Under the pieces are notes generated by a model. That model was not told where the DNA came from. It did not search any database and saw only the letters and a program-made list of their open reading frames with translations. From Smittium culicis (taxonomy: Eukaryota; Kickxellomycota; Harpellomycetes; Harpellales; Legeriomycetaceae), in NCBI GenBank assembly GCA_001970855.1, contig LSSN01005497.1, forward strand, positions 1 to 16,666: a stretch of DNA of 16,666 bases. The letters run 5' to 3'. This document shows, piece after piece, positions 3,670 to 13,193 of the stretch (the stretch's first letter is position 1; each line of letters begins with the position of its first letter). The position numbers and the translations under genes are program-made.

Positions 3670-6087
3670 AAAATTAAAATTAGTCTTTTTTTATGTCTTT
3701 TCTATCTCATAATTATAATGATGCGAAATTTTTTTTCTTTTCCAGTATGGATCGCAGATAATATTATAATTCTAATGCTTTTGGGGTTCCCAATCACTCG
3801 AAATTCATCTATTTTTAAATCTAGATTCTTGAATACTTCAAACTCATTTTTTTTCTTAAAACAATGAGATTTTTTCCTGGAAAAAATTTTGATGAATTGA
3901 ATCATAAATTTTATTCATCTTAAAATACTTTCAGCGATACCTTCCGGTTCTTTGATCTCTTTAAAGCTATTTTGTAATTTTTAATAATTATATTTATACT
4001 GATTCAGCCCATTTATAGTTCTCTTATGACTATTTAATATTCATTGGTTGGTCATGGCAGATTTTTTTTAGTCTCATTTCTCACAAGAATTTTTTGAGTT
4101 ATATATATTTATTTTTATTTTTAGAAAAAAATATTCTATTAAAATTTAATCGCCATTTTAAAAAAAATTTACATCAAATAATAGGCTACCTTTAGATCCA
4201 AACCAGATCAATATTGACTCTTGTTCTTTTTAGATAAAATAGCGCAATAAATTCCTGATTTATATTATTATTTAGATACTACTAGCAGTTAGATCATATC
4301 ATTTTTTGCAAATAAACTTATTTGGAGAAAAAATTGTAAATTTTATTAGAGATCAAAAACCAATTTAATGAAAAAATAATAATTGAAAATAATTAAAAAT
4401 ATAGCAAAATACATTTGTATAATTATAACAATTAACTAAAAGTCTGTAGCCGCGAAATAGCACTAATTAATTTGATTTATATGCATATTTTGACAGATAA
4501 TTAAAGCTCCAAAAAAAATTATACTTTATACCTTTTTCTCGAAAAAGCTACCAGATATTAGCGAAAAATAAAAAATTGACAGTCGCAGTTTTTTTTTTCA
4601 CTATTATTTTATATCAATAAATCAACAGGTAGAAGGCGATCAAAATTACTGAAGATAAATTATTTTATTTCTTATTTTAAACTGATATAAGAAAAAAATG
4701 ATAATAATTGTTCTTTTTATATTAATATGAGAATTTTCTTGGGAAAAAAAATAAAATAATACTTGCTTATAAAAAATAAATGAAAAAAAAAGCATAAATA
4801 GTGGTTTGAATTTTTAATAATAATATAAAATTTTTGAATCGTATACGAATGCAACTTGGCTTGTTTTATTAATATTTTAAGTCATAAAATTCAGTCTTGT
4901 AAAAATTTTTTAATTTGTAAAATAAAGCTAATTAAGATATTAATTTTATTATATACCCATAAAAACTTAGCTTTAAAATTTTTTATTTTTAGCAATTATA
5001 AGATTTTAAAATATGATGTATTTTACTCATTTTTATAAGATGCTGTTTTAGATAATAATAAAATTTTGTTTTTTTAACGGATACTTACAATAAATAAAGA
5101 TTCAAATTATAGAAGCGAAAAATTAATAAAGCACAAAGAAAAGTAATATTTTGACATAAAAGCTCATCTCTGTCAATATTTTAACATTTTGGAATTATTC
5201 TATAATTTTTTATTAATAGTATTCTTTTTAAGATTTATAAAAAATCAAATTTGAATTCCTATTCTGTATTATATAAAATTCATAAATCAATTCATAATAA
5301 ATTATATTGAATTAATATAATCAATTATAAAATCTTAACTTGACCTCAGTTATAACATTGATTCTCATAATATTTTCCATTAAAAAAATCTCTAACAATT
5401 TATTCAAAACTGAAAAAATTATAGTATTTAATATGGCGAATAAACTAAAAAAAAATTTAATGGCGATACTAAACGGTTGAAAATTCCAAAAGATAATAAG
5501 TATTTACCTTTTATAAAATTTTCTCGATAGTTAGATTAGTTAAATTTGGTTTTATTTGGTTTTAAAATTTTTATTTTTTATTTTAAATGATTAAGGTTAA
5601 AAATGCTGTATATTTTTATGTAAAACGTGTTGAAGTTTAATCCTACGATAAAAGAGTATATTTATACCTTATTAAAAAAATTTTACGAGACAAGTGTCTA
5701 AAAGCATTTAATAGTAAAAATAGTAATTGGTTAACTATATTTAGTGTGCATTAATTAAGAACTGATTTACAAATATTTTTCAGAAATAAGAAAAATAAGC
5801 TAGCTCAAACATATCTTACTTTATTCCTATTTTCCCACGTAAAAACATATTTCCTAATATGTAATTAAATAAATGTATATAAATTAAATCTCTGTCGTTC
5901 CTCTGAGTGACAAATTTTTAAAAAATCTATTAATTCAGTTAAATATATTTAATATCCTGTTAATAACAATGAAAAAATCTTTTTTATATAAGAACTATTA
6001 AAATTAATTTTGTTAGAGTAGAGATAAGTGTGATAAAGATAGATTTAAATACGAATGGCATAAAAAAGTTAGAAATTGTCATGAATG

Positions 6088-6188
6088 GAACTTTCTATAA
6101 CCTTCTAGAATGTTTCAGAATATTCAGATATCATCAGAAGCAATGTTCTAGAATGTTATGAAACGTTCTAGAACATTTACGAAATTTC
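6088..6188 (+). promoter_or_regulatory. Array of heat-shock elements (HSF-binding nTTCn/nGAAn units)
   Basis: HSF trimers bind alternating TTC and GAA blocks spaced every 5 bases. Three groups are present. The first is GAA 6088 and TTC 6093. The second is TTC 6103, GAA 6108, TTt 6113, GAA 6118, TTC 6123, where four of five are perfect. The third is an unbroken nine-unit run at 5-base steps from 6146 to 6188: TTC, GAA, TTa, aAA, TTC, GAA, TTt, GAA, TTC, where six are perfect. TTCTAGAA occurs three times in full. The array lies about 190 to 290 bases upstream of the TATA box at 6378, a sensible promoter distance. Density and phasing are well beyond what scattered chance motifs give. Confidence 0.8.
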
Positions 6189-6207
6189 TTATCGATTTTA
6201 ATTTTTC

Positions 6208-6228
6208 TTACGTAATAATTTTACGTAT
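6208..6228 (+). promoter_or_regulatory. TTACGTAA / TTACGTAT bZIP-type sites
   Basis: TTACGTAA (6208-6215) is a perfect palindrome matching sites bound by fungal Yap/Pap1-type and CREB/ATF-type bZIP factors. A near copy TTACGTAT follows at 6221-6228. Both lie between the heat-shock array and the TATA box. Factor assignment is inference from the motif only. Confidence 0.45.
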
Positions 6229-6258
6229 TCATATTTTTAAACATCGATAACGATTTAT

Positions 6259-6292
6259 TTTGATTACTAATCAAGTTTGATTAGTAATCAAA
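6259..6292. repeat. 16-bp perfect inverted repeat carrying TTACTAA and TTAGTAA
   Basis: Arms 6259-6274 and 6277-6292 are perfect reverse complements with a 2-base spacer. Each arm is itself a palindrome around one central base: TTGATTA-C-TAATCAA and TTGATTA-G-TAATCAA. The cores TTACTAA (6264-6270) and TTAGTAA (6281-6287) equal the classic Yap1 response element in its two orientations. The DNA could extrude a cruciform, or hold two bZIP dimers side by side. TAAT cores would also suit a homeodomain factor. Confidence 0.75.
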
Positions 6293-6369
6293 CAGATATT
6301 TTTCTATAGCTTTCTTTTTAGTTTATTCTGTAGTTTTTCTTTTAAGTTTATGACCTAAAACCAAGCAAC

Positions 6370-6399
6370 GGAAAAAGTATAAAAAGGTTACGTTTTTCC
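6370..6399 (+). promoter_or_regulatory. TATA box framed by a 7-bp inverted repeat
   Basis: TATAAAAAG (6378-6386) is a strong TATA match. GGAAAAA (6370-6376) before it and TTTTTCC (6393-6399) after it are perfect inverted repeats. Transcription would start roughly 30 bases or more downstream, near 6405-6430, inside the proposed R region. Confidence 0.65.
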
Positions 6400-6444
6400 T
6401 GTCTTGAATTCGATATCTAGTATCTTGTATACTTTCTAATGAGT

Positions 6445-6454
6445 AATAAATAAA
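6445..6454 (+). promoter_or_regulatory. Poly(A) signal of the LTR (overlapping AATAAA pair)
   Basis: AATAAA occurs at 6445-6450 and again at 6449-6454. It lies about 65 bases past the TATA box and about 65 bases before the proposed LTR end, as expected at the R/U5 border. Confidence 0.5.
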
Positions 6455-8833
6455 TATATTTATAGTAAATATAACTTTTACTTCACTTGCCTTGCACTCT
6501 TATAACCCAGATCTTGACAGAAATAATATTTAAAAATTTTTAAAATATGATTCCAAGAATAAAATCAGATTAAAAAAAGATACATATCCGAATCATAATT
6601 TTATTAAAATTTTCATACTAATGAATATAAAACTAAAATATTTATCATAAAAATCGATTGCTAATATAAGATATTTTAAAATAATATTTAGATTAATTTT
6701 TATAGTAAAAAATTAAATTTGAATTTACGAAAAAAATATTAAAAATCTAGATTTTCTAAAAAATTAAAAAAACATGATTTCATAAATTTTTATTTAATAG
6801 ACTACTTGATTCTTTCTGATTAAATACTCAGTAAAAATCTAAAAGCGCTGAAAAATTAGGAAAAAAAAAAAGAGTTAAAATAATATCAGTTTACAAGAAT
6901 ATTTCAATAGAAAAGTAATTTAATTGGATTTATCTAATTATTTATATTAATATTGCTACATAAAACTAATTGTATTTGACAAAATAATTTTTTACTCTTT
7001 TATATTTCTAACTTAGTCAATTTATTACATACTGAAAAAAAATTGTGTAGCCTTTTTTTATTATCTTCAGTATTGACTTTATTAAGGTTACTAACAAGTA
7101 GATTTTGAAATTTTTTTATATTTTGAGCATTTAATTAAAATAAAGACTAAATACAAACAAAAAATTAATTTTTTCGAAACTCATGTTTTATCACCCCTTT
7201 CATTTTAACTTTTTTCTACTTGTCTATTTCAAATACATTAAACTATCAATAAATATAGTTATCTAAAAATAATTAATATAGTTAAAATGTAAATGATGGA
7301 TTTTTTTTAAATTAAATCGAGAGCAAAAAAAAAAAAATTCAAGGTAGTATTTACATGAGTTTATAATTAAATATTATTTCATCTCTTTTCTTAAAAATTA
7401 TAATTTTTTATTAGTAGTAAATCTTAATGATTATCGATTTAATATTTCACACCAGTATCTACTAAAATTATTATAATTAATAAATTATTATTCGTAGTTT
7501 TAAATACAAAAATTACTATCATAACATCCAAAATAATATTATCATATAACTTATTACTATAAAAAGCATATTATGCATTTATTGCGATTTATAATCTAAT
7601 CATTTTTCATTATTATATAAATTTGCTTTTTAAAATAATTTTAAAAAATATAATAATGAATTAAACTGTGTATATATATTCCATGTTCAGCCTAATTTAG
7701 TTTATAATTTATATTATATTAAAACAAGGCATAAAAAAATAGACATAATTTGTAATAGAAAATTGTTAATTTAGCTTCCAAATATAAATTTAATGGTTGG
7801 ATAAGCAATTTTTCTAATAAATATTCTCAAAATTTTGTTTAATAAAATATTCAAAGGTTTTTTTAATACCCTAATTTTTTTTGAATTTATAGAAAAATTC
7901 CTAAATTATTTAAAAGATGTCTATATTTAAATTTTAATCTCAATAATTTTCTAAAAAGATGTATATTTCCCTACTCATATGAATTAGTAGATAAATTTTT
8001 TTATCGTTAACATAAAATAAATAAATTTGAGACGATAGTTTTAAAAACTTATTCTAATTATCAAAAAATTATTATTATAGTTCGAAAATTCAAGAAAAAT
8101 ATAATTTGCACTTGACTATACTAAAAAATAATTCATTCATGATTCAAACAATTAAAATTAGAATGTATTAGAAATAGTTAAAATTCCTTCGAATCTTTAA
8201 TTGAAAAATTATATGTACGATTGAGTCAATTTTTAGATGTTTTATTATAAATGATAAACACAGTTATTTTTTAAAACAGAGTTTCAGTAATAAATTATCA
8301 AAAATTCAAATTAAAAAAAATATGAGAGTTCGATTTATAACCCTTTTTACAAATTTATAAGATTTTTTTAACCATTTAAATTAATCAAATAGATAATTCC
8401 AAAATTTTATATTTCAACACAAGTCAAGCTTTAAGAAAAAAAAAAATTATACAGATTTTCGTTAACATTTTATAAATGAAATTTAGGCTACGAAGGTTTT
8501 ATTATATAATCATATAGATGAATCAGCTGAGGACAAACTCAAAAAACTTTCGACTTTATATTTTTATACAAAGGACTTGCTTTGAAAATTTTTAAAATGA
8601 CATTTTAAATTATTATTATCGCATTGTTTTTTGTATAAAACTTATTATTTTTACATCGAATGAAAAATTAAAAGGTATTCTGTATTTTATAATTGCTTTT
8701 TGGGATTCATATTTCAATTTATATTTAAAATTAGAGTAAATTTCGTGTAAAAAAATATTAAAAATATCTTACTAAATTATATTAATTGAAATCAAGTAAA
8801 ATTCCATGGGAATAATTAATAAATAAAAAAATT

Positions 8834-8877
8834 AACCAGGAAGGTGGTTGGATTTCACCAACAGCTTTACCCAGGTT
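8834..8877. other. Small nested-stem G+C patch
   Basis: A 44-base patch of normal base composition inside A+T-rich spacer. It folds as AACC 8834-8837 with GGTT 8874-8877, GGT 8843-8845 with ACC 8869-8871, and a 5-bp hairpin GTTGG 8847-8851 with CCAAC 8858-8862 around a 6-base loop. It also holds two CCAGG words. No known ribozyme, riboswitch or snoRNA core is visible. It might be a small RNA, a protein-binding site or a remnant. Confidence 0.35.
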
Positions 8878-9405
8878 TGATTTTTATAATTTTTTATATA
8901 TTAATTATTTTTATTTATAAATATTGAAATTATAGACTAGTAATTGTACTAGAGCTTTGATTTTTTATCTTACTGTGTTTATTAAGCGGTCAATTCGATA
9001 TAAAATTAACTATAAAAAACATTTATAATATAATAATTAATTTTTTCGGCTACTTTCATATAATGTTATAGTTCAGTTCCATATCTTACTATTCATCGGT
9101 GAAGGAGTACAAATTTTTGATTATTGTCAAAAATACGGGTAAATATAGTATTTATTATTATATAAATAAGATTTTACGGCCAAGTCAATTCAATGAATAA
9201 AAAAATTGTATATTTTTTGTATTTTCACTGGTAAAAATTAGAAAAAATCCTATCACGTAAATTAATATAATATAAATTTCGCTAAAATTTACATAATAAA
9301 AAAAATTTAATATTCAGCTAAGATTTTTTTAGTAAATTTATTTATTTAAAGCTCAATTACTAAAATTATAGATAGAAAATTAATCCAAAAAAAAAAATAA
9401 AAACG

Positions 9406-9426
9406 TTTAATGATTTAATGATTTAA
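9406..9426 (+). repeat. Short tandem repeat, unit TTTAATGA
   Basis: Two full copies and a partial third of TTTAATGA. Confidence 0.6.
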
Positions 9427-10062
9427 AATTTTTTATAATCAATTTTATTAATGATTCTATTCAAAAGTATTCTTTTTTATTTTCACCTAAGATTTCCAAC
9501 TTTGCTTTTGAAAATTCTCGCTGAAATAGTTTTAATACGTATTTTTAATTCAATATGTGTTATTTAAACTGTAAAAATTGTTAATTTTTTGGATTTTGAT
9601 TTAAAAATATAAATACATTTAGTTATAAAATTTAAACATCAATATAATATGCGACTAAAATCTGATTAAATTAAAATGTATAATATTAAGTTCTTAAACT
9701 AATATCTTAATTTTCTACTTAAGTTATTGTATATGAGGGTTTTTTATTGGGGGTTTCATATTTTTATATATTTCAGGTAGAACTTAAATTTCAATATTAT
9801 ATATGCCATTTTTTCTATCAATAATTTTTATTGCTGTTATTATTATATAATACAAACTTATTTATTAGTTAAAATTATGCAGTTTTAACAGTGTCAGCTT
9901 TTAAAATAATTTTATGATGCACTTTTATCATTTAATTTGAATTCATGCATTTTTGGCTTGAATTTATAAAGATATTTTTTTAATTCAATTTTATATTGCT
10001 TTGCTTTAAATTTTTACAAAGTGAATATCCAAAAAAAATATATAAAGATATTTAAAATCAAG

Positions 10063-10157
10063 AAGCTGGAAAAGAATGCGATTTCTTTTTTAGTGCCTAC
10101 ACTTATTTTATGTTTATAAAATTTATTTTTATATAAATAAACCTAATTTTCCAGCTT
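10063..10157. repeat. 11-bp perfect inverted repeat AAGCTGGAAAA / TTTTCCAGCTT
   Basis: Arms at 10063-10073 and 10147-10157, perfectly complementary, 73 bases apart. The arms contain the non-A+T core AGCTGG/CCAGCT, so chance is less likely than for other repeats here. The 95-base unit could be a tiny terminal-inverted-repeat relic or a long-loop hairpin. No flanking duplication is seen. Confidence 0.55.
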
Positions 10158-12115
10158 GGAGTTTAGAATTACAATTATTTAAAAATTAAGTATTATTGGA
10201 TATTTATTTGCTCTTTGGATGAATAATTGTATAAGCTTTCTATAAAATACTTTCTGTTTAGTCATATAATATATATTAAGTAAAAAAAAAGAATTTAGTA
10301 TTTTTTTTTAAAGTTTATGATTTATGAAATAATATTTCACAAAAAATCCTATTTTTAAAGCTTAGTTTTATTAATATTATTTAAATTTAATGATATTATA
10401 TAAGGAAATGTGCAAATAGAAATCAAAGGGTAATTCTAGTAGATTTTTTCTAGATTTCGATAGAGTATTTTATTGAAGAAAATCAAGTTTTTAAATTTTT
10501 TTTATTGTTATTGTTATTTTTATTAACTCTGAATCAAAGTTTCTATTTTTTATTTGATATTGATTTTATTTTTTAGCCAGGATATTCTTGTATATCAAGC
10601 TAATTAGCATTTGTATACCTAAAATCTTCAAACTATTTCTTGATTAGTAGAATATTTTTGAAATAGCAAGTATATCCAACAGATTTGAATTAAAATAAAT
10701 TAATTTCAAGACTCAAATAGTTATTGATTTACTCATCAATAAAAGAAAATAATAAAGCTTCTTATAAATGGCTAGCGAATCAATAAATTCATGTTTTTAA
10801 ATAAGTTGGACGCGAAATGGATTTTGCATATGAAATGAATACCATAAAACCTCATAAATAAAAAAGCTAAAATATGAGCAAATAAACTCAATTTATATAA
10901 ACGAATTCTATTATATAAAATTTAAAGGTCAATAATATCTTAGGTAGCTATAACTTATAACATTAATTGACACTTGAGTCATCCGTTTTAAGCTTTACAT
11001 CATATAAGCCACGCAATATTTTTTGTATAAATTATCTAAAGTTTATATTTATTGCGCCATTTTTTTTAAAATATACTAAAATTTTAAATTAATAGAAGTA
11101 ATAAAGCTGAAAATTATAATTTTTTTGGAATTTTATGCATAATTTTTTATTTATTAAATAATCACTTTGTAGATTTTAAAACCCCCAATTGTAAACGTTT
11201 ATAAATCTAAAGAGAGGCAAGGAGTCGAAAATTTATGGGAAATTGGATATGTATTTAAAATTTCAGCTAAATAACATTATTATTAGTAACGCAATAAGTA
11301 ATTCTTTAAAGTTTTATTTTTCTGAAGCTAAAAAATAAAATTTTCTTATATTATTAATAAAAATCACAATTTACAAGACGTTAGTGGTTCCAAATTTAAA
11401 AGCTCATATTGTTTACGTATAAAAAATAGTTATTATATACTACAACGTACTCTTGGAAATTTATGACAAATGATTTATATAATATAAATAACTAGACTAC
11501 TTAAATATAATTAGTAACGTTGTTCTTTTATTTATTAAAGTCATTTGATTTTTTTTTGCTTGAATGATTTATCATGACTAACAGCTTATTTTTAATAGTG
11601 CTGGGTAATAATCTAAGATTTATAACTATAAAAAAAACGAAAAATCAGAAACTGGAGACACCAACTTATTCAAGTGACCTGTGGTGATAATATGTAACTT
11701 TTAAACGATACAATATGTCTATATTTTAATACCAACATTATTAGAAAAAAAAATACCAATAAAAATATCAATTATTGATAATTGTATAATAATAATTAAA
11801 AATTATTCCTGAATCGATATATGGTAGGAATAAACCTGCTAGAGAAATTTAATTTGACTTTTTAAATAATTTTACACATTAGTAATTTTGAATTTATAGA
11901 TATGTTAATGTTTTATTTAGACATACAAAAATATTTCCAAAAGATAAAAAATGCAATTTTTTTGACCTAATGATATAATTTTTTTCTAATTATTTTGATC
12001 ATTAACTTTATCTATATAGTTACACACCTTGTGATCTAAAAACTAAATTTTATGGTTTATTCCTTTACTCTGATAGATATAGTTGTAAATTTGTAATGAA
12101 ATAAAAATCCCTTCG

Positions 12116-12124
12116 TATAAAAAG
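12116..12124 (+). promoter_or_regulatory. Candidate TATA box of the Ras-like gene
   Basis: TATAAAAAG lies 200 bases upstream of the ATG at 12316. It is the same 9-mer as in the LTR promoter. In so A+T-rich a region the match is weak evidence, so this is only a candidate. From 12125 to 12315 nothing else stands out. Confidence 0.3.
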
Positions 12125-12315
12125 TGTTAGTTTGGTCATATTTTTATAGCTTAGAAAATTGTGCTATATCCCAAATAAATTTATTGAGAAATTTTTATGC
12201 GATTAAAGAAAACATATTTATTGATGTTTATTAACAGTTATTTATAAAGTTCAATAAATATTTTATAGAAAAGTTTATTTATTTATTTTCGTAGCTCTTT
12301 TTTATATATTTTTAG

Positions 12316-13193
12316 ATGGAAAACTATAATATTGTACTGATAGGCTGTAGAAAAACTGGAAAGGTAATTCATTTAATTTACATGTCATTAAAAATATTAA
12401 AAGTTTTAACTTTTTAAATAGACAACTTTAATTCGAAAATTCCTCGGAAAAAAAACGAGTAAAATATCTCGAAGACGCAACAAGCCTGAGTTCTACTCAC
12501 AAGTGTCATATAAACGTAAAAAACTATTCACTTTTGTCGGAATATGGGAAGCATCAGGTAAACTCACAATGGTTTAATTTAATAAAAATTTACATATAGA
12601 TTGTTTATTTATCTATCTAATAAGAAAATATAGCGATAAATTTTATTAAAAGTGTCAAATTGAACACATCTTTAGATTATGAGGAAATTTTATACTTCCT
12701 AAGAAATCACAAAGACAGAAATACTTGTTTTATCCTTGTTTATGACCTCACAGATTTTAGATCATTTAAGCTTACAATAGAATGCTTAAAAGAATTTTTT
12801 AAGAGCCAGAAAATTGGTGTAAACTATCCACTAGTAGTTGTAGGAAATAAAACAGATATATACAAAAGTCGTGCTGTAAAAGAAAAGAATATCAAAGACC
12901 TGGCAAGAATTCTAATTAAAAATAAAATAAATTGGTCTTATTTTGAAACCAGTGCTTTATTTGGGAGTAATGTGAATCACGCTTTCACGGAAGCTATAAA
13001 TTTATCTGAAATTTACAGGAACAACACAGATACTAGCAAAATTTTACTTAATGAATTTTGCAATGGAAAATCGCTGTTATCTAAGAGGTGTAGATTCGCA
13101 AGAAAATTTTTTTCGATATTACAAAAGATATCAAAGCACGTTAAAGGCGTACTAAATTTTCAAAAAAAATTAAAAGAAAGAAAGAAACTATAA
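12316..13193 (+). CDS. Divergent Ras-like small GTPase, three exons
   Basis: Proposed exons are 12316-12363, 12422-12557 and 12676-13193 (introns 58 and 118 bases, GTAATT...AAATAG and GTAAAC...CTTTAG), giving 233 residues. The ATG puts the P-loop GCRKTGKT at residues 10-17, where Ras proteins have it. The G4 motif NKTD is 119-122 and G5 ETSA is 152-155. FILVYDLTD marks the strand before the switch-following helix. Oddities: G3, normally DTAG, reads WEAS (58-61), so the Mg-contacting Asp and the switch II Gly are missing, and no clear switch I Thr is seen. Loss of these usually means weak GTP hydrolysis or none. WE at this place recalls the RGK GTPases (Rad, Gem). As in RGK proteins, the tail ends in basic residues (KKLKERKKL) with no CAAX prenylation box. 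Relation to RGK may be convergence. The acceptor at 12675 is chosen because spacing from WEAS to FILVYD then matches Ras. Acceptors at 12624 or 12633 also keep the frame but add 14 to 17 residues. Confidence 0.8.

Follow-up and report, generated by a model that had tools for sequence, protein, structure and literature searches.

ONSEN is a plant Copia element, and DIRS-1 of Dictyostelium, a tyrosine-recombinase element that makes no target-site duplication, has a heat-shock promoter in its terminal repeat. Here we describe an element of Smittium culicis, a harpellalean fungus that lives in the gut of fly larvae, in which the long terminal repeat (LTR) bears arrays of heat-shock elements (HSEs). 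One copy lies in a stretch of 16,666 nucleotides, the whole of contig LSSN01005497.1, which we call the window. The evidence suggests a Tf1/sushi-like Ty3/gypsy LTR retroelement whose U3 (unique 3′) promoter, with its HSE arrays, probably answers heat or proteotoxic stress through heat-shock factor (HSF).

In ONSEN/ATCOPIA78 of Arabidopsis, heat-shock factors recognise HSEs within the LTR (PMC8376061). The Smittium element likewise has HSEs inside its LTR; it differs in being fungal, apparently of Ty3/gypsy type and, by its sequence arrays, a candidate for heat activation, whereas ONSEN is a plant Copia element in which that activation is demonstrated. The LTRs of two fungal retrotransposons, TCN12 and TCN3 of Cryptococcus, also contain putative HSEs, and heat-linked mobility of these elements has been measured (PMC12810828). 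They carry one and two putative HSEs, respectively, compared with 17 phased units in the Smittium LTR. For MAGGY and Pyret, fungal LTR retrotransposons of Magnaporthe, a link with genomic change following heat shock is on record (PMC3978060), in an account whose accessible text lacks the term 'heat shock element'. In Caenorhabditis, mobile DNA in the form of Helitrons carries substantial numbers of the genome's HSEs (PMC6927752), but a Helitron is a DNA transposon and has no LTR promoter.

The window LTR and its dispersed family

The window contains a 443-bp sequence with the ends TGTCA...TGACA (6077–6519), flanked by a perfect 5-bp target-site duplication, GAAAT, and its identity as a solo LTR is near certain. 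A sequence-only reading of this DNA had already proposed a solo LTR, at 6011–6519. Its TTGACA end at 6519 agrees with both the sequence and the family alignments. Its start was misplaced: TGTTAGAG at 6011 belongs to the flank, and alignments begin at window positions 6072–6077 for 36 of the 38 other full-size copies (the window and an identical copy on C2518 being set aside), which puts the true edge at 6077, after GAAAT. The two exceptions are C608 and C471, the latter beginning at a contig end.

We searched a genome of 56.3 Mb in 2529 contigs, in which an SSB-type HSP70 has 100% identity to a Smittium culicis protein and a matching HSP70 lies at the start of contig C2433. When the LTR was used in a DNA search, all 40 matches scored (of 120 candidates) were copies, the window included. 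A pattern of the 25 bases at the 3′ end (≤3 mismatches) occurs at 94 places in the genome, compared with 0 for a reversed control, and the single-copy sequence that the earlier reading had named as grounds for withdrawing its proposal is not what we found. Independent insertions number fewer than 94, because the census includes duplicate contigs such as C2518. Positions 4450–8100 of the window are identical over 3651 bases to C2518:34790–38440 (locus L001), and C2518 may be either a second haplotype or a duplicate contig; other LTR loci also occur in pairs (for example, L098/L099 and L103/L105).

Target-site duplications were assessed in 28 distinct LTRs that match over at least 300 bases, with identical LTRs merged and the shorter contig-end copies L034 and L047 omitted. 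Twenty-one are solo LTRs with both flanks readable, five adjoin internal sequence (a placement that for L016 depends on four bases), a contig end truncates one, and one lies beside Ns. An exact 5-bp duplication flanks 17 of the 21 solo copies, while four of five bases match in two and there is no match in the remaining two; cross-pairings of the flanks, used as a control, gave 0 matches in 420. The LTR at L023 sits inside a repeat that is LINE-like (resembling a long interspersed nuclear element) by eye, and uninterrupted relatives of this repeat are 88.5–90% identical across the site. A search for empty sites among the retrieved loci returned repeat-family sites only and no clean allelic empty site. 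The repeat flanking L019 is also LINE-like by eye.

HSE arrays in the LTR and across the genome

The five HSF units at 6103–6125 and the nine at 6146–6188 in the sequence-only reading, together with its TATA box and its nearby AATAAA, are all present where it placed them (Table 1). Four of the five units at 6103–6125 are perfect, and three more lie in phase with them (at 6088, 6093 and 6098; two perfect), bringing array A to eight. The arrays are real: their phased-chain scores are 11 for array A and 10.5 for array B, whereas the highest among 2000 dinucleotide-shuffled versions of the LTR is 6, as is the best score in the rest of the window. Among 36 aligned copies (L099 and L105 being omitted as near-duplicates of L098 and L103), the longest run of perfect units is eight in four copies, six in three, five in 22 and one to four in seven. 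The window copy is a decayed family member, with a longest perfect run of two units where 29 of the 36 copies have five to eight.

Genome-wide, the exact four-unit HSE palindrome occurs at 167 sites, compared with seven in a reversed control, and the six-unit form (≤1 mismatch) at 58 sites, compared with 0. By position, 42 of the 50 listed six-unit places fall in the LTR family, as do 24 of the 50 listed four-unit places, some of which overlap each other. We read seven of the other 26 listed four-unit places, outside the LTR family, and five of them (L087–L091; on C52, C73, C117, C225 and C369) belong to a second, diverged repeat, which we call LTR-like on the strength of its promoter layout. 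These copies carry TTCTAGAACCTTCTAGAA, a TATA block and, upstream, GAA repeats at 10-bp steps (three to six in phase); the number of shuffles, of 2000, with stepping as good was 0 for L090, 1 each for L087 and L088, 10 for L091 and 41 for L089. Compared with the window LTR (blastn, E ≤ 1e-3), the second repeat matches only in the HSE blocks (five of five copies) and the TATA block (four of five, not L089). A sixth copy, L023:2228–2507, was met without the HSE pattern, and it keeps the TATA block and TTCTAGAATCTTCTA with an adjacent one-base loss. As for the two other places read, L092 is coding-like by eye, and L093 (C122:7290–7720) is HSE-bearing and unclassified, matches the window LTR by blastn weakly and around the HSE only, and carries TTCTAGAATCTTCTAGAA, a motif also found at C178 and C382.

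Internal region and element class

Internal sequence lies beside LTRs on the 5′ side in C2444, C2331 and C882 (four bases only in C882) and on the 3′ side in C1251 and C387. In C2331, a 5′ LTR with 89.8% identity to the window LTR is followed by gag-like, protease and reverse transcriptase (RT) frames up to the contig end; in C1251, an integrase end comes first, then a purine-rich tract and the 3′ LTR, and the piece stops at the contig end. Stops interrupt the internal frames, which we searched piecewise; the pieces match the Pfam families RVT_1 (1e-30), RVP_2 (an aspartic protease, 2.9e-6) and SH3_Tf2-1 (1.3e-21). The last of these is the Tf2-like C-terminal SH3 domain of the integrase by which Tf1/sushi elements are recognised. 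The two frames of the single 3′ piece, itself broken, gave no Pfam match to a chromodomain. Of the full elements with two LTRs around gag-pol, which the sequence-only reading had suggested looking for, we found pieces: gag-pol fragments adjoin LTRs, but none of the contigs carries more than one of the 94 census 3′ ends. The order of protease, RT and integrase is only consistent with Ty3/gypsy, because the join between RT and integrase is not on one contig. Among the 120 listed relatives of the RT piece, the organisms named are the fungi Absidia glauca and Podosphaera aphanis and the plant Tanacetum. Other RT-bearing families also occur in the genome (127 matches scored of 352 candidates).

These domains make a strong case for a Ty3/gypsy-type element with a Tf2-type integrase end, apparently Tf1/sushi-like. 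Such an RT and integrase end place it outside the classes of ONSEN and DIRS-1: we reject Copia membership on its RVT_1-type RT and Tf2-type integrase end, and DIRS-1 membership on the same integrase end and the 5-bp duplications, which DIRS-1 lacks. The element had been suggested to be either independently evolved from those two or related to them; given the element's class, independent evolution fits better than relatedness.

Among the Schizosaccharomyces elements, Tf1 self-primes its reverse transcription and Tj1 is proposed to do so (PMC7175516, PMC4600332). The Smittium element resembles Tf1/Tf2 and Tj1 in its Tf2-type integrase end and possibly in self-priming. After the LTR, two 5′ copies read CTATACTAGATC, with the same 20 letters in both. 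A 9-nt sequence, ATACTAGAT, which starts 2 nt into the internal sequence of other copies, is complementary to ATCTAGTAT at 6415–6423 of the window LTR. This pairing is only suggestive of Tf1-type self-priming. The R–U5 (repeat and unique 5′) RNA fold is unremarkable (z −0.70).

Table 1. Features of the solo LTR and its borders in the window.
Feature	Position	Strand	Detail or basis
5′ target-site duplication GAAAT	6072..6076		directly before TGTCAT at 6077
Solo LTR, 443 bp, TGTCA...TGACA	6077..6519	+	family alignment ends; 3′ end at 94 places including the window
HSE array A	6088..6125	+	8 alternating GAA/TTC units in 5-bp steps, 6 perfect in the window copy
HSE array B	6146..6188	+	9 units: 6 perfect, 3 with one mismatch
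34-bp near-perfect palindrome	6259..6292		self-matches of query 310–343; downstream of the HSE arrays, upstream of the TATA box
TATA box TATAAAAA	6378..6385	+	its block also matches the second LTR-like repeat (4/5 copies, blastn)
ATCTAGTAT, candidate self-primer	6415..6423	+	37 bp past the TATA-box start; 9-nt complement to the internal region
AATAAA, poly(A)-signal-like	6445..6450	+	sequence
3′ target-site duplication GAAAT	6520..6524		directly after the TTGACA end at 6519

The palindrome in U3 is possibly a second factor site; it is shortened or lost in some copies (L096, L103 and L105). No open reading frame (ORF) of at least 80 amino acids overlaps 3868–12659 of the window. It is therefore improbable that the window copy drives a gene at this site, and the heat-shock exon directly downstream that the sequence-only reading had named as the mark of a host promoter is not seen. 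Elsewhere in the window, a Ras-family GTPase-like ORF, probably one exon, lies at 12660–13193 (PF00071, 3.1e-15), and positions 1–51 hold the 3′ portion of a tRNA gene truncated by the end of the contig (Rfam, 33.3 bits).

Proposed stress response and rival explanations

The architecture of the LTR suggests that its promoter is likely HSF-driven and induced by stress. In the mechanism we propose, of which HSF binding, heat induction, self-priming and LTR–LTR recombination are the parts we infer, the two HSE arrays would act in the U3 promoter from about 190–290 bp upstream of the TATA box. Under heat or proteotoxic stress, trimers of the host's HSF would bind the arrays cooperatively, and the bound HSF would recruit RNA polymerase II to the LTR. 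Reverse transcription of the element's RNA would follow, perhaps primed by the RNA's own 5′ end, and the complementary DNA would integrate with a 5-bp duplication. Recombination between LTRs would leave many copies, the decayed window copy included, as solo LTRs.

Five places in the host genome encode HSF-type DNA-binding domains; two of these score equally and are perhaps duplicates. Both of the domains that we retrieved match HSF-fold chains in the PDB, the best being 5d5w, 'Putative transcription factor', with the strongest match for C1837; we take 5d5w to be a fungal Skn7. Divergent HSP70-like genes are present at L076/L077 (C2360, C1612) and at L078, which is broken by stops.

Several results weigh against a heat-responsive, HSF-driven element of this kind. 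The 11 HSP70-family loci scanned (some duplicates, one broken) have nothing above two adjacent perfect units. The HSP70 upstream stretches taken for reading covered 500 bases before the Pfam match (only 57 at L075, and inside the gene at L080). At HSP90, the 350 bp before the gene and the stretch at its start score one unit. The HSP70 and HSP90 stretches examined hold no such arrays, which leaves the use of arrays of this kind by the host's HSF putative; some of the scanned HSP70s (SSB, mitochondrial and BiP types, assigned partly by eye) are not expected to be heat-inducible. Within the family, the array A unit at 6098 reads TAA in 24 of 36 copies and GAA in nine of 36, so that the commonest copies have lost one unit. 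The HSE cores show no excess conservation (pairwise difference 0.0497, compared with 0.0465 at other U3 positions; a difference this low or lower arises in 6395 of 10000 permutations). Solo copies that decay neutrally would show equal conservation, but the result does not point to selection. The intact four-unit core in L087–L091 reflects their selection, because these copies were picked by the HSE pattern, and the self-primer match is equalled by 60 of 3000 shuffles.

Other explanations separate the arrays from heat. An HSF-fold paralogue, Skn7 for example, may bind the arrays, and the LTR would then answer oxidative or wall stress instead. Both the array-free HSP70 and HSP90 stretches and the resemblance of the retrieved DNA-binding domains to 5d5w, closest for C1837, are in its favour, but a long, unbroken row of inverted GAA/TTC units is the classic site of the HSF trimer, and we regard this explanation as unlikely. 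A still smaller probability attaches to the arrays being inert relics that came from an ancestral element or a different host, with copies spread by some other promoter feature. The unexceptional conservation of the HSE cores, the decayed window copy and the lack of comparable arrays at those HSP genes of the host that were examined are what such relics would leave; against this, 29 of 36 copies retain runs of five to eight perfect units, and the second repeat keeps its HSE and TATA blocks while the rest of it has no blastn match, in a set where five of six copies were HSE-picked. That the sequence is no mobile element at all, and instead a remnant of a host heat-shock promoter, we reject as having next to no chance of being right: its TATA and HSE layout does resemble an hsp promoter, but the 94 places, the target-site duplications and the adjoining gag-pol pieces refute it.

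The proposal of an HSF-driven LTR promoter can be extended to the genome as a whole, where at least two diverged LTR families may have HSF-site promoters of differing architecture (contiguous inverted units in one; 10-bp-stepped GAA repeats beside a four-unit core in the other) and together hold most of the strong HSE arrays. Heat shock would then switch on a network of retroelements, with HSF titrated in the process, in place of a response made up mainly of chaperone genes. We offer this extension tentatively and consider it rather doubtful.

Our literature searches, which mostly did not extend to subscription journals, showed no account of the Smittium culicis element. Host-mediated heat activation of transposable elements is undescribed in fungi, according to a 2026 paper (PMC12810828). 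The LTR family has dozens of copies and up to eight perfect units in unbroken succession, and a second repeat carries an HSE block as well; the family is a strong sequence-level candidate for such activation, and it would permit the testing of heat-driven transposition in a fungal lineage distant from the usual models.

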